A stretch of 64,000 nt of DNA from Chlorops oryzae (lineage: Eukaryota; Arthropoda; Insecta; Diptera; Chloropidae): positions 142,169,934 to 142,233,933 of the forward strand of contig CM035806.1 of the NCBI GenBank assembly GCA_020466095.1, read 5' to 3'. The notes under the pieces were generated by a model, which saw only the letters and a program-made list of their open reading frames with translations, made no database searches and had not been told where the DNA came from. Position numbers and translations under genes: made by a program. Shown piece after piece: positions 2,926 to 63,470 of the stretch; the stretch's first letter is position 1; every line of letters starts with the position of its first letter.

Positions 2926-3639
2926 CAGGGATCGAAAATAACAATTATTTTTGAAATTTAAAGTTAAAAAGTCAAAGGGAAAGAGTTTGCGTATTCGATA
3001 TTTACATTGAGAAATGTAATGCTTTTTAGGCAAGGAGTGGTAATCTTCAAGAATTTTTATTTTTTTGACTTTTTCCAAAAAAGTAAAAAAATAACGGTTA
3101 TTTTTGACTTTTATTTTTTCGGTCAAAAATAACAATTAAAATTTGACTTTTATTTTTTAAGTCAAGAATAAAAATCAAAATTTGACTTTTATTTTTTTAG
3201 TCAAAAATAAAAATTAAAATTTGATTTTTATTTTTTTGATCAGATTTAAAAGTTAAACTTTAACTTAAATTTTTTCGGGCAAAAATAAAAGTTGAAGTTG
3301 TAATCGCATGTAAGGAAGTTTACATCGGCTATGCCGATTGCATACATACCTTTTCCTCAGCTTCAAATATCGCACCCTTGCTACTAAACCGCCACAATTC
3401 AAAAATTTTTTCATCTAATTTTTCATGTTTGACCGCATTTTACTGTACGAACACAACACTTAGAAAATTTACCTTGAAATTAATACCTTCAGCAGTTAAT
3501 TAAGAATATTAACAACGTGTAAAAAATATCTTCTTTACGAGGTCTCGAAAGAGACTGGATATTTTACGAGAAGTGCGGAATTTTGAATTGTGCCGCTTTA
3601 GGAGCAAGAGTGCGATATGTTAAAAAAGAAAGTCTCAAT

Positions 3640-4645: not shown

Positions 4646-4962
4646 CAACTATATCATTGCACTTGTTTATTTTTTATTTTTGCCCGAAAAAATTTAAGTT
4701 AAAGTTTAACTTTTAAATCTGATCGAAAAAATAAAAATCAAATTTTTATTTTTATTTTTGACTGAAAAAATAAAAATCGATTTTAACTTTTTTTTCTGAC
4801 TTAAAAAATAAAAATCAGAATTTGATTTTTATTCTTGACTTAAAAAATAAAAGTCAAATTTTAACTGTTAATTTTTGACGGAAACTTTATACGTTAAGAA
4901 ATAACGATTATTTTTTTACTTTTAAAATAAAAGTCATAACAGTTACGGTCCCTGTATCAGAT

Positions 4963-6223
4963 CATATGAGATGACCTTCGCCAAGAGAAACACATTCACT
5001 TCGGACTCTTTAGTGAGTTCATTACGAGGACTCATACTCTAAATTAGAACATACTGTGTGTCCACGCAATTTTCGGCATTATTTTAATACGCGATAGCTT
5101 ATGTCAAGAGTTTTTTTTTTTGTTTTTGGATCACTAGTCTAAAAGGTACCGTTATTGAGTTATAGCACTTTAAAACACATTTTGTATAGAAAACAGAAAA
5201 TTTTTTGGAAAATTTTTAAGTATTTTTTATAAGTATACATATAAGTATGTATTTAAAAAGAAAAAAAAAAAATCATCATTTTTTAAAGTGCTATAAGTCA
5301 AGTTAAAATTTCCCTTCGAAACCCAATTTCTGGACGTTCTCTAGGCAAATCTATAAACATTACTCAAATTTTACTAAAAACCAGTTCCGAATCAATTCAA
5401 TTCGATTCAATTTTATACAATTTATGAAATGAAGTCAATTTAGTTTCTAAGACAAAAACCAACAAATCCTTCCACAAATACTGAAAGACAAGTAGGCACA
5501 CTCAAAGGCAGAAACTCCTCACCCCCGATCCGCCAATGCAGAGAAACACTCCTCATGCTCATGCATGTGCAAGATATAAAACAATTTAGTCGCTCTTTCA
5601 AATAACATTAGCAACAACACCAAGGACAACGAAAGCTACACCGCCAGTGACAGCAAACACCATCACCAACAAGACCAAGACCAAGAGCAACAGTCTCGCC
5701 ACTTCCACCGCTACTGTCACGGAAATCGCAATGGCAATCGAAATTGAAAGCAATACTAACGAAATTTGCATGCGCTGTCATTGTCATTATCTTCACCATC
5801 AGCGGCTTTACACAAGACGAAAGGCACTCAAGTACGAAACACGAAATGCGAAATTCGAAATGCGAAATAGCCCAAAAAAAAAAAAAAAAAAACAAAGATA
5901 CAGGCAGACGTTAGCGGAAACAAGCAAATCTCCATCATCATCATGTCGTCTATGAAAACTCAATTTACTTAAGTAAATAAACTGATATGAATGTTTAATT
6001 TATCTTGCAGTTATTCAACGAACGAAACCGACAAACTCATTCGTATGGACGTGTGAAGTACGAGGGCTGCTGAAAAGAAAAGTAAACATTGCATATATGT
6101 ATGTACATCTTTTTATAAATACATACATAGATACATATGTATGCATGTATAGATGAGCGAGTGTAAATATGTACATATGAAAATAAGAAACTCCAAGTTC
6201 ACCATAACGGCTCAGATAGTGGT
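4963..6223. other. non-coding stretch right of the hAT element
   Basis: No gene is supported. A 16-bp inverted pair (TTATAGCACTTTAAAA and its complement) lies at about 5159-5294 with an A/T-rich loop. It may be a small decayed inverted-repeat element. The open frames at 5.6-5.95 kb are low in complexity (CAC/ACC-rich) and have no recognisable domain. Confidence 0.5.
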
Positions 6224-6406
6224 ACATAACATAACATAACATAACATAACATAACATAACATAACATAACATAACATAACATAACATAACATAACATAAC
6301 ATAACATAACATAACATAACATAACATAACATAACATAACATAACATAACATAACATAACATAACATAACATAACATAACATAACATAACATAACATAAC
6401 ATAACA
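6224..6406. repeat. (ATAAC)n pentanucleotide array, 3' side of the retrotransposon
   Basis: About 36 essentially perfect copies of ATAAC (TTATG on the minus strand) run from about 6224 to 6406 and stop exactly at the poly(A) tail of the adjacent retrotransposon (seen as poly(T) on this strand). The same array resumes on the other side of that element at 11719. Confidence 0.95.
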
Positions 6407-6431
6407 TTTTTTTTTTTTTTTTTTTTTTTTT
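6407..6431 (-). other. poly(A) tail of the retrotransposon
   Basis: A run of 25 T on the plus strand joins the 3' UTR directly to the pentamer array. This is the expected junction of a target-primed, poly(A)-tailed non-LTR element. Confidence 0.9.
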
Positions 6432-6686
6432 GCGGGTGGGGCGTGTGGAATCCATCATGGACCATCAGTAAGGACGTCGCCAAACCGGTGTGCCGGACTC
6501 CTACCGGCTAAACCACCATACCCCTTCTAGGACATCAACATTCCTCCCCGGAACTGCTCTTGCATTACTTCAGGGAGGGTCCTACTTGGCTATCTATGCC
6601 TTCATCTTGTTTATTAAGCCCGCGGCCGGGCCTCCGCACTGCTTCTCTTTATGACTCATCTGCGTCTAGATCTTGCTTTTTTGTCC
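6432..6686 (-). other. 3' UTR of the retrotransposon
   Basis: About 255 nt lie between the ORF2 stop (TAA, 6687-6689) and the poly(A) tail. It is GC-richer than the host DNA and contains short complementary blocks (ACCGGTG...CTACCGGCT on the plus strand) that could fold into a stem. In R1-clade elements the 3' UTR can be recognised by the reverse transcriptase; that role here is inferred. Confidence 0.6.
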
Positions 6687-9629
6687 TTAGGACTTTTTCG
6701 ATATACTTGAGATGCAGAACCAGTATTCTTCGTTGCTTAACATCACTCTTGTCGCGGTTTCCACGTTGAAATCCCCAATTCGTCTCTCGAGCTGTGAACG
6801 CAAGTCATTCCATTTTATACACTTAAAGAAAGTGTGTTCTGCGTCATCTTCAGGATCGTTGCAGTAAATGCATCTTGGGTGTGGGGTTTTCCCCATTTTG
6901 TATAGGTACGTCTTGAAATAGCCGTGCCCGGAAAGGAACTGTGTCAAGTAGTAGTTTACCTCACCATGTTTGCGGGTTAGCCACGGCTCAATTCTTGGAA
7001 TTAGTTTCGCCGTCCATCTGCCTGTTGTATCGGTGTCCCATTTTCGCTGCCAGGAAGCTAGAGTCGATTTGCGCTGCTCTGCGGTTTGTTGCGCGGTAAC
7101 ATTTCTACTCTTTTTTAAGCGCCACGTTTTTGCCCTTTCTTCTGCTAATAGGTCTATCGGGATTACGCCGGCTATCACTAACACTGCTGATCTAGATACT
7201 GTACGATAGGATGATGCGACTCTCTGAGCTGCGTTAGTTTGTGTGGCCAATAGCTGCTTTCTTCTGGTATAAGCATTTAGGGACGCTGCCCAGATTTCGC
7301 TGCCATAAAGCATTACTGAGTTGATGACTTCTAATAGAAGCTTTCTTTTGCTTTGACTCGGTCCTCTGACATTTACCATTAATCTACTTAAGGAAGCAGT
7401 GATCTGTGCTGCTTTGGTCGTTGCGTATTGCAATTGTGCCCAAAATGTTAGCTTTGAGTCAAGCCGTACTCCTAGGTATTTTAAAGTCTTCTGTGTGAGG
7501 AGTGACTCTTCGCAAATTCGCATCTCAATTTCTGTGATCATGTGCTTTCTGGTCAGCAATAGTAACTCCGTCTTTTGGGTTGCTAACTGCAAACCATGCG
7601 TTGTTAACCATTCCCTGGCACGTATCATTACTTGTGTCAGCTTTCTTTGGGCATCTGTAGTGTCTCTTGCTGTGATAACGGCAGCGACATCATCGGCGTA
7701 TGCGACTAAAGCTGTGTTTTCAGGCATCTCTATGTGTAACAAATTATCGTACGTGATATTCCACAAATCTGGGCCAAGGATGGATCCCTGCGCGGCACCC
7801 GCTGTGATCTTTAGAGTCTGTGATCCCTCATTTGTGGAGTAAATGAGTTCTCTGTCTTTCAGATAGCTTCTTATTATATGCAGTAGATATGCCGGAACCT
7901 TGAAGCGCTGTTGTAGTGCGTCGAGTATATCAACCCATCGCAGACTATTGAACGCATTTTTGATATCCAGAGTGACCAGGAGCACGACTGGTCTGGAAAA
8001 ATGATTTCCTCTATGAGTCCTCTGCGCTGCGTGAACGACTTCGGCTATGGCGTCAATTGTCGACCTCTGTGGCCTGAAACCGTACTGTTTTGGGCTGAGT
8101 CCTCCCGCCAATTCTACCGCTGCAGCTAGTCTTGGCTTTATGAGCTTCTCGAGAAGTTTTCCTGCTGCGTCGAGCATACACAGTGGTCGGTATGCTGCTG
8201 GCGTTCCGGGCTCGCCCTTACCTTTGCTGATCAATACAAGCCGTTGCTTTTTCCAGACCTCTGGGAAGACCCTCTCGGTCAGACAGGCATTGTACATCCG
8301 AAGAAGTTCAATTGGGCGCTTTTTGGTGATCTCCTTGAGGACTTCTGCCGGTATGTTATCTGGTCCAGGTGCTTTTCCGTTCTTCAGTGTAGCGGCTGCG
8401 TGATTTAGTTCATCTTGAGTAAACAGCGGAATGTTTTCAATATGTTCAGCTTCTGGCTCGTCTGTGCGCATCTTGTGGGAAGGAAACAGAGTTTCTACTA
8501 TGTTCTTCATAGTTTCTTTTTCCAGGTTCTGAATTTGCGGCGATGGTTTTAATTTTTTCATGGCGATCTTATAGCCTAGTCCCCAGGGATTATTATTTAC
8601 ATCTTGGCGGAGCTCCTCCCACTTCTGTTTTTTACTGTCGAGGATAGCTGATTTTAGGGCTTTCTTCATTCGCTTATACTCCTCTGAACTGGCTTCGCTA
8701 GGATTATCTCGTCTTGCTCTTGTATATAGCCGTCTCTGTCTCAAGCATTCTTGCCTCACGCGTGCGATATTTTCGTTCCACCAGTACACTGGTTTTTTTC
8801 TCGTTCTGTGGGAGATTTTGGGCATTGACATTTGACACGCTTTTTTGATTGCGGCCATTGTTTTTGCGACGGTGTCCCTAGCGCTGGTTTCTACTTCAGT
8901 AGTTGGCAATCTTCTGTCGAACTCGTGAATTAACGCTGAAGGATTCAGTTTTTTGACGTTCCACTTGCGAGAGTTTTTCTTAGTCATAATGCCTAAAGGT
9001 TCTATAGCTGCTGATTGGACAGTGAACTCTATATATTGGTGGTCGCTCCCCGTATAATCTTCGATGACTCTCCATCCCGTTAAATGCTTACCAAGAGCAG
9101 CTGATGCCAGTGTGATGTCTGGATTGGTTCCCTCGCATCCTGGTCTGCGGAATGTTTTTTCTTCTCCTGTGTTGGCAACAAAAAGGTTCAGTCTTGCAGC
9201 CATGTCAAGAATCCTTTGTCCTCTCGAGCTTGTGCTTGCCATGCCCCATTCAACTGCCCGCGCGTTGAAGTCCCCGGCTAAGATGATTTTACTATCTAGG
9301 ATCTGCGCTCTGTCCTCGATGGCGTTCAATTTCTCCTCGAAAGAATGAATTTGGTCGCTTGGTGTGAGATAGCAGCTGAATACAGAAAAGTCTCTTATTT
9401 TCGCGCTGACAAAACCGTTTCCACTAAATGTGCATGAAGGATGCACTTCTCTGCCACCGGGGACCCACAAGGCGGCTGTTTTTGTTGTGTCTTCCAGCCA
9501 GAATCCGCTTTTTCTTTTGGTATACTGTTCGCTTATTATAACGACGTCGATGTTCTTCTCTTGTACAATTTGTGACAGGAGGGCATCAGCTGTTCTGCTT
9601 CGGTGTAGATTTGCTTGAAGTATCCTCAT
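6687..9629 (-). CDS. ORF2: endonuclease / reverse transcriptase of the R1-like retrotransposon
   Basis: The frame is open for 1,030 codons from an upstream ATG at 9779, but the likely start is Met51 (9629), which gives 980 residues and forms an ATGA overlap with the ORF1 stop. Numbering from 9779: an APE-type endonuclease spans about 51-255 with N57 (QANLHRSRTAD), E84, GDFN at 169-172, NPD at 219-221 and SDH at 245-247. A reverse transcriptase spans about 460-760 with GKAPGPDNIPAE, QGSILGPDLWN and the catalytic YADD at 694-697. A C-terminal C-X2-C-X8-H-X4-C knuckle lies at 970-987. No RNase H is seen. All catalytic motifs I can recognise are present and no stop interrupts the frame. It should nick target DNA and copy the RNA by target-primed reverse transcription. 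Confidence 0.92.
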   Translation of the reverse strand: MRILQANLHRSRTADALLSQIVQEKNIDVVIISEQYTKRKSGFWLEDTTKTAALWVPGGREVHPSCTFSGNGFVSAKIRDFSVFSCYLTPSDQIHSFEEKLNAIEDRAQILDSKIILAGDFNARAVEWGMASTSSRGQRILDMAARLNLFVANTGEEKTFRRPGCEGTNPDITLASAALGKHLTGWRVIEDYTGSDHQYIEFTVQSAAIEPLGIMTKKNSRKWNVKKLNPSALIHEFDRRLPTTEVETSARDTVAKTMAAIKKACQMSMPKISHRTRKKPVYWWNENIARVRQECLRQRRLYTRARRDNPSEASSEEYKRMKKALKSAILDSKKQKWEELRQDVNNNPWGLGYKIAMKKLKPSPQIQNLEKETMKNIVETLFPSHKMRTDEPEAEHIENIPLFTQDELNHAAATLKNGKAPGPDNIPAEVLKEITKKRPIELLRMYNACLTERVFPEVWKKQRLVLISKGKGEPGTPAAYRPLCMLDAAGKLLEKLIKPRLAAAVELAGGLSPKQYGFRPQRSTIDAIAEVVHAAQRTHRGNHFSRPVVLLVTLDIKNAFNSLRWVDILDALQQRFKVPAYLLHIIRSYLKDRELIYSTNEGSQTLKITAGAAQGSILGPDLWNITYDNLLHIEMPENTALVAYADDVAAVITARDTTDAQRKLTQVMIRAREWLTTHGLQLATQKTELLLLTRKHMITEIEMRICEESLLTQKTLKYLGVRLDSKLTFWAQLQYATTKAAQITASLSRLMVNVRGPSQSKRKLLLEVINSVMLYGSEIWAASLNAYTRRKQLLATQTNAAQRVASSYRTVSRSAVLVIAGVIPIDLLAEERAKTWRLKKSRNVTAQQTAEQRKSTLASWQRKWDTDTTGRWTAKLIPRIEPWLTRKHGEVNYYLTQFLSGHGYFKTYLYKMGKTPHPRCIYCNDPEDDAEHTFFKCIKWNDLRSQLERRIGDFNVETATRVMLSNEEYWFCISSISKKS
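9626..9629 (-). promoter_or_regulatory. ATGA stop-start overlap between ORF1 and ORF2
   Basis: On the minus strand CATGAGG places the ORF2 ATG (9629-9627) over the ORF1 stop TGA (9628-9626). Stop-start coupling by termination-reinitiation is known for the R1-clade element SART1 (UAAUG type). The geometry here suggests the same mode of ORF2 translation and decides the ORF2 start. Confidence 0.7.
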
Positions 9630-10828
9630 GCTGGAGAGGTTCTGCCGGGCTGAGGCTTGCAAGCCTTCGAGCCGGGGACATGATTTACGTCTTGCAATCC
9701 GTGCTGTGAACATACGCAGCATTTTGGTTTGTTTTTGCAATCTCTCATTTTGTGCCCGCTTTCGCCGCAGCGGATGCACATGCCAGCACTTTTTCTATCT
9801 GGGCCCTTGCAGTCTCTTTGGATGTGGCCAAGAGCGAAGCACTTGAAGCAGATCTTCCTTTCCTGAGCATAAGTAATTTTGCATCGGATCCAACCAATTT
9901 TTATATGTTCTGCCTGAACTAAGTTTTTTGCTGCTTCAAAGGATAAGTCCACAAAGGCTCTGCGTTGTTCTCTGTAGTTAGTTCCTGTGACACGAACTAT
10001 GATTTCCTCCTCTGGGCTTATTAGTGTCTTTTTGACTGCCTCCAATACTTCTTCCGTGTCTGTGTAGGAATCTAAGCCTCGAATTTCTACTGTAGCTTTG
10101 GGCTTTAGTTCTGAGATTGTCGCTATCTCGCCAAGAGTAGTTTGAACTGCCTTGCAGAATTCGGACTTCCGTCCTCCTTTACCCATCTCTAATAAAATCG
10201 CACCCGTTTTCGTTTTCCGGATTGATCGGATCGCAATTTCCGCTTCGTCTGGACTTACTTTCTGTCGCAAGTCTTTTAGCACCTGGGCGTAGCTTTGGCC
10301 GTCTTTGGGCTTTACCAGCAGCGCTTCCGGGCGTGCTCTGGGCTTTTTCGAACGATCAATTTTGTCAGGCTTTGCCTTTATTTTCTCTCGCGTTTCATCA
10401 GGTCTCGTCTGATATCTACTTTGCTGATCTGTTGGTATTTTGGTTCGTTGACGCTTTGAGTGGACAGTGGTCCGTTTTTCTAGGTTATACTCGCTGCCGT
10501 TATCTGCTGCTTTCTCTTTTATTCGCTTACCCGAATCGGGGGCAGCAGGGCTCTGGGCTGCTCTCTTTTTTCTTGTCGTTAGGGGCGTCTCCGATGCTTT
10601 CCCTCTTTTGTCTTCAGGCGCCAGTCTTGCTTCTTTATCTCGGATTGAATCTGTCTCCGACCTAGTCCAGCTTCTCCGACATGATTTTGCGACATCAAGC
10701 AGTTCCTCAAGCTCAGATACCCCGGTTTTAACATCCTTACTGATATTAGGCTGTCTTATCGCTGCTGCTTTAATTTTCTTCAGAACCTCTTGGAACTTTA
10801 GTAAAGCCTCTTCTTCTTCCTTACGCAT
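9626..10828 (-). CDS. ORF1 main part: zinc-knuckle nucleic-acid-binding protein
   Basis: This is a 400-codon frame. It has a charged, Lys/Arg/Glu-rich N-terminal half, a middle region (roughly residues 190-310), and three C-terminal zinc knuckles: CFKCFALGHIQRDC and CIRCGESGHKMRDC (both C-X2-C-X4-H-X4-C), then C-X2-C-X9-H-X6-C. This order is typical of R1-clade ORF1 proteins, which coat the element RNA and help target it. The stop TGA (9628-9626) overlaps the ORF2 ATG. A TAG lies about ten codons upstream of the first ATG in this frame, and the true N-terminus probably lies in the overlapping upstream frame (11139-10798). Confidence 0.85.
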   Translation of the reverse strand: MRKEEEEALLKFQEVLKKIKAAAIRQPNISKDVKTGVSELEELLDVAKSCRRSWTRSETDSIRDKEARLAPEDKRGKASETPLTTRKKRAAQSPAAPDSGKRIKEKAADNGSEYNLEKRTTVHSKRQRTKIPTDQQSRYQTRPDETREKIKAKPDKIDRSKKPRARPEALLVKPKDGQSYAQVLKDLRQKVSPDEAEIAIRSIRKTKTGAILLEMGKGGRKSEFCKAVQTTLGEIATISELKPKATVEIRGLDSYTDTEEVLEAVKKTLISPEEEIIVRVTGTNYREQRRAFVDLSFEAAKNLVQAEHIKIGWIRCKITYAQERKICFKCFALGHIQRDCKGPDRKSAGMCIRCGESGHKMRDCKNKPKCCVCSQHGLQDVNHVPGSKACKPQPGRTSPA

Positions 10829-11139
10829 CTTATAAATGAAGTCCTGTCGTGGGAGCTAGGAGCGGCCGAGGGCTTCGTTGTAAGTGTAAGTTCGGCTATG
10901 GCTGTGAAAGTGGGTGCGTTTCGTTGGTCTTCCTTTGTGGGTTTGCGGGCGGTCATCACTTCGCTCATGCTAAATGACCTCTCTCTCTGTAGTGGTTGTA
11001 GGTCTCCCTTGCGGTCATTTGTTTCTCGGTGCTGATTTGGAGATTTGGCTAGCTTTGACCTTTTAACAAAAGGATCTCTGTTCTCTCTTTCCGCTTCTTC
11101 TATTAATTTTTCTGGTATTTTTTCTTTAGTTGTATTCAT
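10798..11139 (-). CDS. ORF1 N-terminal part, in a different frame
   Basis: A 113-codon frame starts with ATG at 11139 and overlaps the 400-codon ORF1 frame by 31 nt. It is polar and Ser/Thr/Lys-rich with no domain I recognise. Its position directly upstream suggests it is the original N-terminus of ORF1, now separated by a one- or two-base indel near 10800-10850 in a GGAAGAAGAAGAGG-type tract, or joined by ribosomal frameshifting. A sequencing error in this purine run is also possible. Together the two pieces would give about 500 residues, normal for an R1-clade ORF1. Confidence 0.55.
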   Translation of the reverse strand: MNTTKEKIPEKLIEEAERENRDPFVKRSKLAKSPNQHRETNDRKGDLQPLQRERSFSMSEVMTARKPTKEDQRNAPTFTAIAELTLTTKPSAAPSSHDRTSFIRCVRKKKRLY

Positions 11140-11718
11140 GTCTTATGGGTCCCATCTTCTTGCCGCTATCTCCGCTCGAAAGTGCAGTTGCCCGTTGATC
11201 CCCGTGGTTGTCTGTGCGATGCAGGGAGGTCACGCGAGGGTTGACGTAGGTCCTTATGGGAGCCTACGTTCAGAGCCAGGATCGGGCATTAGTCGGGAAA
11301 TTTCATCCAGCCTGTACCACCAACTTAATGGCGACGAGCTTCGAACGTACAAGAAGGCTTGCCAGGTTTTAACGGGACGGGGGCAACAGTAGTATTAGCC
11401 TGAGAGCCGTTTTCGCCGGATGTCACTCCTGCGTACTAGGGTAACAGATTACTACCGCTGCCAGCTCGAGGCGTCAGATCTTAGGAGTGTTTCAAAATCA
11501 TTGTCCGTGTCATAAAGCGTGTTCGTCAAAACCTAGCGTTAAGGCTAGGCCGTCGTTTTCGTTGGTTCACCGTCTGCCAGGCTTGGCGTTCGGCTATCCA
11601 GGGCCACCACATGGAGGTGAAAATCGACTTGGAGTGGGTGCGACAAGGATTGCCCTGGCCCACACCAAGTTGTAGGCAATCAGAAGCGTTACCTTGTGCG
11701 CCCACTCCCTTGACCCCT
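11140..11718 (-). other. 5' UTR of the retrotransposon
   Basis: About 580 nt lie between the pentamer array and the first ORF1 ATG. It begins AGGGGTCAAGGGAGTGGGCG on the minus strand, immediately after the last TTATGT of the array. An internal promoter is expected for this type of element, but I cannot identify one by eye. Confidence 0.6.
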
Positions 11719-11951
11719 ACATAACATAACATAACATAACATAACATAACATAACATAACATAACATAACATAACATAACATAACATAACATAACATAAC
11801 ATAACATAACATAACATAACATAACATAACATAACATAACATAACATAACATAACATAACATAACATAACATAACATAACATAACATAACATAACATAAC
11901 ATAACATAACATAACATAACATAACATAACATAGCATACATAACATAACAT
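11719..11951. repeat. (ATAAC)n pentanucleotide array, 5' side of the retrotransposon
   Basis: About 46 copies of ATAAC, perfect except for one disturbed unit near 11931-11942 (ATAGCATAC). It matches the array at 6224-6406, so the element interrupts a block of roughly 80 pentamers. Confidence 0.95.
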
Positions 11952-48297: not shown

Positions 48298-49059
48298 TTA
48301 CATTTTCGTCAATAAGTAAATTGTTAAAATAGTTATAATACAAAAACAGATTAACATATAAGTACACGAATTTAGACAAAATTTCGCGGCTAGAATGTGA
48401 ATCCGTCCAATTGACCGTCGATGAAATCCTCTAAAACGCTGTCGGAAGCTTCGCAACTGCTGGTTATCATTAAGATGACGATAGCGTTGAAGATTGCAAT
48501 TATGATGATGCTGATGAAGATGATAATAATGAGGATGACCATATTCATGATCGTAATCATAATCGTAAGCAAGATTGTAGTTATAATCAAAATGATAATC
48601 ATAGGTTCTTTCGTGTAGCTCAATTTCTATTTGTTCTACTTCCCCATCTCCTTCTCGTTCACGTTCTCGTTCTCGTTCTTGTTCTTCAACCTCTTGTACT
48701 TCTCCTTCTTCTTCTACTTCTTCTTCTACTTCTACTTCTACTTCTACTACTACTTCGTGCGCTTCGTCCGCTTCGTCCGCTTCGTCCGATTCCTCTTCGT
48801 CTTCGTCGTCTTCGTCTTCGTCGTCGTCTTCGTCGTCATCGTCATCGTCGTCGTCATCTTCTAAATTGTTTCGATTTTCTTCAAAAGCATCAAAAATTTC
48901 TGCGAATAGCCTTTCGCGTTCCTCGTAATTGATCTGATGTCCTCTTAATTGCCGCAATTGCGGTCGAAATTGTGTGGGATGTATTATTAATATAAGTGAG
49001 CGATCTCGTGGCGGAATAAAACTGGCGCATAACCAATTGGATAATGTATCTTGGAACAT
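48298..49059 (-). CDS. open frame downstream of Nedd4: acidic, Tyr/His-rich, C-terminal hydrophobic tail
   Basis: I do not recognise this 253-residue product. It starts 60 nt after the Nedd4 stop codon, in the same frame, with TAA TGA and then 19 open codons between. The N-terminal 60 or so residues are of ordinary complexity (FIPPRDRSLILIIHP, NYEERERLFAEIFDAFEENR). A long Asp/Glu run and Glu/Val run follow, then a Tyr/Asp/His segment, and finally a hydrophobic stretch of about 20 residues (MLICFCIITILTIYLLTKM) that would suit a tail anchor. It may be a second cistron in the Nedd4 3' UTR, a gene of its own, or a chance opening kept by GAA/GAT-type repeats. The hydrophobic C-terminus and non-repetitive N-terminus favour coding. 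Confidence 0.35.
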   Translation of the reverse strand: MFQDTLSNWLCASFIPPRDRSLILIIHPTQFRPQLRQLRGHQINYEERERLFAEIFDAFEENRNNLEDDDDDDDDDEDDDEDEDDEDEEESDEADEADEAHEVVVEVEVEVEEEVEEEGEVQEVEEQEREREREREGDGEVEQIEIELHERTYDYHFDYNYNLAYDYDYDHEYGHPHYYHLHQHHHNCNLQRYRHLNDNQQLRSFRQRFRGFHRRSIGRIHILAAKFCLNSCTYMLICFCIITILTIYLLTKM

Positions 49060-49119
49060 GATGTCGAGTGGGTTCGGATTATGTTCATCGTACAGCCAGC
49101 GCTCACTTAGCTGCAGTCA

Positions 49120-63470
<14,351 letters not shown>

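Follow-up and report, generated by a model that had tools for sequence, protein, structure and literature searches.

We analyzed a 64,000-nucleotide stretch of the Chlorops oryzae genome (GenBank assembly GCA_020466095.1, contig CM035806.1, positions 142,169,934 to 142,233,933 of the forward strand), here called the window, which contains a non-long-terminal-repeat (non-LTR) retrotransposon set between arrays of the pentamer TTATG. The element lies on the minus strand at positions 6407 to 11717 and is ~5.3 kb long, counting its poly(A) tail. Tandem Repeats Finder detected ACATA arrays on both sides, with 36.8 units and 100% matches on the element's 3' side (6224 to 6407) and 46.8 units and 98% matches on its 5' side (11719 to 11951), where the irregular units are confined to the outer end; these values agree with the ~36 and ~46 units given in the original prediction, which had been made from the letters of this stretch. 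The 5' terminus of the element reads GGGGTCAAGGG at 11717, and we treat the A at 11718 as an extra base because 8 of the 10 best 5' matches in the genome, including all seven other full-length copies of the family, begin at query base 2. The poly(A) tail appears as a 25-T run at 6407 to 6431, and its final A is possibly a target base (TT|ATG).

The coding region of the element, all on the minus strand, contains two open reading frames (ORFs), as expected of the R1 clade. ORF2 is open from stop to stop between 6687 and 9794 and has 980 codons (6690 to 9629) when counted from the ATG (MRILQ) at 9629, which matches the starts of its relatives; two further in-frame ATGs precede this codon in the open frame. 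Its product carries an apurinic/apyrimidinic endonuclease (APE)-type endonuclease (EN) domain (8970 to 9629), a reverse transcriptase (RT; RVT_1, 7461 to 8201) with a YADD motif, and a weak C-terminal zinc-binding-like stretch below the Pfam cutoff (6816 to 6920), and a domain search found no RNase H in it at E 0.1. ORF1 is split in this copy over two overlapping frames, the first (MNTTKEK..., 11139 to 10801) being left near 10850 and the second (10855 to 9629) carrying CCHC zinc knuckles, with the best Pfam stretch at 9806 to 9853. Thus, the description of the element as nearly intact holds, with ORF2 open and ORF1 in two frames. The 5' untranslated region (UTR) consists of a predicted self-cleaving ribozyme (11550 to 11717), described below, and a remaining portion at 11140 to 11549, while the ORF2 stop and the 3' UTR occupy 6432 to 6689. 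A tblastn search of the window with the best 120 of 718 ORF2 relatives matched this element alone.

Several comparisons bore out the prediction that the element is R1-clade-like. Among solved chains, ORF2 is nearest to the TRAS1 EN (E 5.5e-13), with the R1Bm EN lower, and a Foldseek search with an AlphaFold2 model of the EN (predicted local distance difference test score, 93.6) ranked the TRAS1 EN (E 6e-19, template modeling score 0.81, 26% identity) ahead of the R1Bm EN and then the LINE-1 (L1) EN, LINE standing for long interspersed nuclear element, so the APE-type EN has an R1/TRAS-like fold. Among the best 120 of 718 ORF2 relatives, identity reached 58% over 99% of the query, and the organisms included Bactrocera tryoni, Drosophila subpalustris, and Molorchus minor; viral and genome contig collections yielded nothing useful as to relatives, with one bacterial metagenome-assembled genome contig having a distant RT match. 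We also made a quick tree from 40 chosen relatives, the window element, and L1 as sole outgroup, in which P0121 ("ORF2 [Bombyx mori]") was taken as TRAS1 (99% to the solved EN) and P0183 as R1Bm (100% to the solved R1Bm EN). In this tree, the window element and 14 near relatives form a supported branch of their own beside TRAS and R1. Because the references were TRAS1 and R1Bm, and not SART, Waldo, Jockey, I, or LOA, we use the term R1-clade-like.

We searched the window's own assembly (442 Mb; contigs C1 to C4 are 173, 118, 97, and 30 Mb) with the 3'-terminal 519 bp of the element, which gave 42 matches from the best 40 of 164 candidates; we extracted the loci of 30 matches. Eighteen loci were assigned to the TTATG family: 16 readable ones at 97% identity or more, one at 93% (L038), and one that runs into Ns (L039). 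A family-like fragment without a 3' end (L043, C3:30.08 Mb; 92.8% over 1.6 kb), close to a full-length copy at C3:30.07 Mb, was excluded from the count. TTATG arrays are present at all 17 readable 3' junctions, in one orientation in 16 of them and reversed (CATAA) in L030. The 3' register is TT|ATG in 12 of the 17 copies: 10 junctions read poly(A)|TGTTATG, L038 reads TGTTTATG within a short degenerate array, and in L031 the register follows a short A-rich filler. Three copies (L028, L033, and L052) have the junction TTTTATG, and L036 has ~20 bp of filler between its 3' end and the array. Thus, TTATG is the target, as predicted, and the further prediction of a single orientation and phase in all copies stood for 16 and 12 of the 17, respectively, and failed for the others. 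No readable close-family copy lies in unrelated sequence, L039 and L043 being unjudgeable in this respect.

The same arrays are found where copies begin. The 5' search gave 43 matches from the best 40 of 224 candidates scored, and all eight family copies that are full length by the coordinates of both ends have TTATG on the 5' side, among them L059, the 5' end of the reversed copy, and L055, which sits at the transition from an AATGT array to TTATG. In the forward full-length copies, six of seven 5' junctions read TTATGT or TTATGTT plus 0 to 2 extra bases and one reads TTAT. Truncation points are visible in five copies, a tally that leaves out L025, L029, and L032 (5' end beyond the fetched stretch) and L039 and L052 (Ns); three lie directly in a TTATG array (L028, L037, and L040), while ~16 and ~23 bp of nonarray sequence separate L026 and L038, respectively, from one. 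An all-against-all BLAST of the masked 3' outer flanks detected no mutual similarity in the 16 of 17 that were properly compared (the L036 flank was miscut), so these are separate insertions, and since they are 97 to 100% identical, the family is probably young. Four copies lie within ~100 kb at C2:33.74 to 33.85 Mb, which suggests a local cluster of TTATG arrays.

Array abundance would hardly account for this pattern. The assembly contains 15,081 exact (TTATG)4 matches (7540 + 7541; reversed motif, 5 + 70), which at 20 bp each amount to at most ~302 kb, or at most 0.07% of the genome; compared with this share, finding 17 of 17 readable 3' ends and 8 of 8 full-length 5' ends in TTATG arrays is far beyond chance. 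It also contains 7329 matches to (TTAGG)4 (4120 + 3209; reversed, 10 + 17) and 5297 to (AACTT)4 (2541 + 2756; reversed, 457 + 491), and yet neither of these abundant arrays was found at any of the 17 family junctions. If the three arrays were used by abundance only, the TTATG share would be 54% and the chance of 17 in 17 would be ~3e-5. The arrays and copies seen are interstitial, inside chromosome-size contigs; for example, a ~1.15-kb TTATG array at C1:3.134 Mb has no element copy within the surrounding 10 kb. We found no TTATG array at the readable contig ends, namely the end of C1 (its start being mostly Ns) and the starts of C2 to C4, which are possibly not true chromosome ends. Interstitial TTAGG arrays also occur, as at C1:837681 to 837970 and C1:2947302 to 2947451, and (TTATG)6 matched five records in a viral contig collection.

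Related elements, recognized by a 3' end ~81 to 90% identical over the last ~200 bp or by a similar 5' end, occupy other repeats. Readable 3' ends are available for 13 copies of a sister lineage, defined by at least 92% identity to L049; this count omits two matches at that identity without a 3' end as well as 85 to 90% relatives. By repeat classes assigned by eye from the flanks, 10 of the 13 are in AACTT repeats (L044, L045, L047, L048, L049, L050 reversed, L126, L127, L128, and L131), with short or impure sites for L048, L049, L126, L127, L128, and L131; of the remainder, L046 is in TTATG, L129 is in a degenerate repeat, and L051 is in no repeat. L046 (C4:13.52 Mb), 96 to 99% identical to most other members of its lineage, is inserted in a TTATG array. 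With degenerate and nonrepeat copies dropped, lineage and repeat type are associated (17:0 versus 1:10; Fisher P = 8e-7), and the sister lineage favors AACTT in a genome where TTATG is ~3 times commoner. Two of the 85 to 90% relatives, L130 and L133, are in reversed AACTT-like repeats.

We fetched 36 of the 43 5' matches (7 from the TTATG family and 29 relatives), omitting the window and six with starts at query base 25 or beyond. By autocorrelation of at least 0.75 over 60 bp, 28 of the 36 5' junctions are in arrays, compared with a background of 5 among 1194 windows taken from eight contig pieces. The units are TTATG or AATGT, TTA (also TAA), TTATTG (one), ATATTTTA (one), CAT (one), AACTT, and TTTATTA (two); L080 passes this test, yet its final 20 bp are nonrepeat. 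Of the eight nonarray junctions, three are in short or degenerate repeats (L063, L075, and L079) and five are nonrepeat. The bottom-strand junctions fit CAT|AAC in TTATG, AAT|AAT in TTA, and GTT|AAG in AACTT, a common T|A cut, with the poly(A) leaving the exact junction base ambiguous by one or two As. Thus, this genome holds a group of microsatellite-inserting R1-clade-like elements, comprising at least 10 related lineages, most of them adjoining simple repeats.

The ENs of these relatives have diverged far more than their ends. The EN regions of 12 of the 16 fetched stretches are 48 to 54% identical to that of the window element and ~47 to 62% identical to one another, except for one 98% pair, both in TTA; this set includes L103, which belongs to the nonrepeat insertion L073, and excludes L092, L094, L099, and L097. 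In a tree of these ENs, in which most branches are weak, neither the TTA users nor the TTTATTA users form a clade. L092, L094, and L099 have the ribozyme 5' end, but a usable ORF2 was not found where its distance from that end would place it, and they are possibly nonautonomous or rearranged derivatives; L097 gave only a short piece of ORF2. At L061/L090 (C1:101.78 Mb) and L062/L091 (C1:109.57 Mb), the 5' 468 bp is 94% identical to the window element while the EN protein is ~51% identical, a likeness that might reflect UTR exchange or very strong constraint. More generally, the 5' matches of other lineages are 70 to 94% identical to the window element, mostly 85 to 90% over the first ~170 nucleotides, compared with ~50% in the EN.

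This conserved 5' segment fits a hepatitis delta virus (HDV)-like ribozyme. We aligned 21 5' ends (the window element and 20 relatives) and read the fold by eye, obtaining a nested double pseudoknot with P1 (nucleotides 1 to 7 with 112 to 118, beginning with a G1.U pair), P2 (90 to 99 with 158 to 166), and P4 (124 to 133 with 140 to 149), in which P3 and L3 read CCUCCANGYGG, P1.1 pairs GG with the CC of L3, and J1/2 contains a long hairpin. Hallmarks of HDV-like ribozymes are a G1.U wobble at the cleavage site, a GG:CC P1.1, and a J4/2 C four bases before P2. Here, G1 is present in 20 of 21 rows (one has no base 1), U118 in all 21, the GG in 20, and the J4/2 C, four bases ahead of P2, in 20.

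Over 20 distinct rows, pairing holds in 95.3% of 1179 cells and 17 of 59 pairs have changed on both sides (1 in P1, 2 in P2, 6 in P4, and 8 in the J1/2 hairpin), while P3 and P1.1 are nearly invariant and without covariation and P4, at 80.5% paired, is weak in its middle. None of 500 shuffles reached any of five measures, and versions with slid partners had 36 to 45% of cells paired and 3 to 6 pairs changed on both sides; because the fold was derived from the rows on which it was then evaluated and shuffles do not keep relatedness, the number of both-side changes relative to the slid versions is the stronger evidence. Self-cleavage is predicted, with the cut falling exactly at the array/element boundary, which would produce uniform 5' ends if the RNA were part of a longer transcript. 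Rfam detected no HDV-like match in the 5' UTR; a single mir-1017 match on the J1/2 hairpin, below the cutoff (E 0.052), was taken as chance. Single-strand folding alone recovered the hairpin and not the pseudoknot.

These observations make it very probable that the window element is one copy of a young, multicopy R1-clade-like family that inserts into (TTATG)n by target-primed reverse transcription and carries a 5' ribozyme. The data show the target with its register and orientation, truncations at or close to arrays, a sister lineage that favors another repeat, and a conserved ribozyme fold; the steps behind them, like the age of the family, are our reconstruction. The element RNA would probably be made within a longer transcript running through the array, from which the 5' ribozyme would free it at its exact first base. 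The family's EN would nick the bottom strand at CAT|AAC, in the TT|ATG register of the top strand. Target-primed reverse transcription would then make use of the RNA's poly(A) tail, and the second cut would fall mostly after TTATGT. Across lineages, the ribozyme and 3' UTR have been retained while the EN has diverged to ~47 to 62% amino acid identity.

A number of points weigh against so specific an account. Within the family there are one reversed copy, three of 17 copies in the TTTTATG register, the filler of L036, and the degenerate array of L038. Specificity leaks between pentamers in the AACTT lineage, through L046, and this lineage has a nonrepeat copy (L051), as have the 85 to 90% relatives (L132, L134, and L135 are in no repeat). 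Five of the 36 5' flanks are nonrepeat: those of L073 and L087 and those of L085, L086, and L089, which are the same and probably reflect one insertion that was duplicated. The copy searches scored the best 40 of 164 and the best 40 of 224 candidates, with loci cut for 30 of 42 3' matches, and may have overlooked copies that lie outside arrays; the clade placement, for which TRAS1 and R1Bm were the references, is provisional, and the ribozyme fold was judged on its own source rows. Thus, the specificity for TTATG is a strong preference and is not absolute. A broader proposal, that these LINEs are a radiation dividing the microsatellites of the genome, we put forward tentatively and with slightly more doubt than belief, because only the TTATG and AACTT lineages show a preference of their own, which for the others is a possibility. 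Under this proposal, each lineage would have its own repeat (TTATG and AACTT with many copies; TTA, TTTATTA, TTATTG, ATATTTTA, and CAT with few or single ones), and all would nick in the T|A register. Their HDV-like ribozyme and 3' UTR would be modules that remained similar as ORF2 fell to ~50% identity, with ends perhaps exchanged between lineages and the EN setting the target.

The junctions could also be read as the work of a loosely targeted LINE that prefers AT-rich sequence or a T|A step and lands in any TTA-containing repeat, TTATG being apparent only through the abundance of its arrays. Every array junction does fit a bottom-strand T|A cut, L046 of the AACTT lineage is in TTATG, and several relatives are in TTA-type repeats, but an indiscriminate element would hardly give 17 of 17 in TTATG with so many TTAGG and AACTT arrays at hand, nor would its sister favor AACTT, the rarest of the three, and we therefore regard loose targeting as unlikely. 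We think it very improbable that the element itself creates or spreads the pentamer by template slippage or expansion of target-site duplications. The marked excess of one motif over its reversal (15,081 versus 75 for TTATG and 7329 versus 27 for TTAGG, less clear at 5297 versus 948 for AACTT) would suit such a process. However, the pentamer is not confined to 3' ends, as element-made repeats had been expected to be, since arrays also border 5' ends and truncation points, the ~1.15-kb array stands with no copy nearby, and L055 lies at the passage from one repeat to another.

The original prediction had linked the family to telomeres, as an R1-clade lineage whose target shifted from TTAGG; TTAGG telomeres have been lost in flies of this kind. 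Descent from a telomere-associated SART/TRAS-type lineage by drift from TTAGG to TTATG would explain why the sense orientation and 3' register are those of SART1 (poly(A)|AGG there and |ATG here; PMC7265360) and would fit the HDV-like ribozymes reported in SART (PMC11620745). Against this, the arrays and copies seen are interstitial, TRAS1 has RNase H and inserts the opposite way, and TTAGG arrays are plentiful and yet unused by the family. The telomere link thus found no support, and we judge descent by such drift to be improbable, more so than loose targeting; the shift from TTAGG becomes one possibility among many because relatives use several other simple repeats, none of them telomeric. 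The window copy itself appears to be near a gene and nontelomeric, since ORF pieces resembling a Nedd4-type gene (HECT, WW, and C2 domains, recognized by eye) lie on the minus strand at 48300 to 63200. Elsewhere in the window, two inverted repeat arms of 208 nucleotides (3083 to 3290 and 4672 to 4879), 78% complementary and 1.4 kb apart, are each built of ~39-bp tandem units and are maybe a foldback element.

The TTATG family and its relatives bear on how APE-type LINE ENs gain and change sequence specificity. Related lineages with different pentamer targets occur in one genome, where the TTATG, TTAGG, and AACTT arrays are built-in controls, and because these rival arrays coexist, EN domain swaps and assays could map specificity. 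The system is well suited as a natural experiment on target choice and target change in such elements. The SART1-identical register, together with the ribozyme fold conserved at the array boundary, links the targeting of microsatellites, telomeres, and ribosomal DNA (rDNA) to a possibly single mechanism.

Among known systems, microsatellite-specific and ribozyme-bearing R1-clade LINEs have both been described. Waldo is an R1-clade LINE found in ACAY repeats. Like it, the TTATG family is in microsatellites, with a different repeat, and could belong to the same group; each bottom-strand ACATA unit includes the ACAY word ACAT, yet ACAY tetramer arrays were seen at 0 of the 17 family junctions. 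Mino, an R1-clade LINE in an AC microsatellite (PMC3124438), invites the same comparison. In the literature searched, judged from titles and abstracts, we recognized no TTATG-targeted LINE, and as far as that search shows, three features are new: TTATG as a target, its register resembling that of SART, and the coexistence in one genome of related lineages that occupy different repeats and share a ribozyme fold.

R1Bm, which targets 28S rDNA, has a related EN and RT and, like the window ORF2, no listed RNase H domain (P0183), and it differs in its target, in lying outside the supported branch of the window element, and in an EN identity of 22 to 24%. TRAS1 of B. mori differs in having a listed RNase H (P0121), in its repeat, in its separate branch, and in its opposite orientation, TRAS inserting in the CCTAA orientation of TTAGG (PMC7265360). 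Large HDV-like ribozymes such as those of R2 and Agam-2 share the double-pseudoknot fold, the CCUCC..GG P3/L3 core, and a structured J1/2 hairpin (PMC4908430 and PMC5035012); the best conserved stretch of the R2 ribozyme is given as CCUCCUCGUGG (PMC5035012), and a structured J1/2 domain is reported to speed such ribozymes (PMC4908430). HDV-like ribozymes are reported for R2, R4, R6, RTE, SART, Baggins, and L1Tc (PMC11620745), while those predicted here are on R1-clade-like elements flanked by microsatellites and were missed by Rfam. Another close parallel is SART1 of B. mori, an R1-clade element of the TTAGG telomere repeat, whose retrotransposition joins poly(A) to AGG (PMC7265360): the tandem pentamer target, the orientation, the poly(A) junction, and the 3' register (TT|AGG there, TT|ATG here) are alike, and SART is reported to carry an HDV-like ribozyme as well (PMC11620745). 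In contrast to SART1, the family described here targets interstitial TTATG, with none of 17 junctions in TTAGG.

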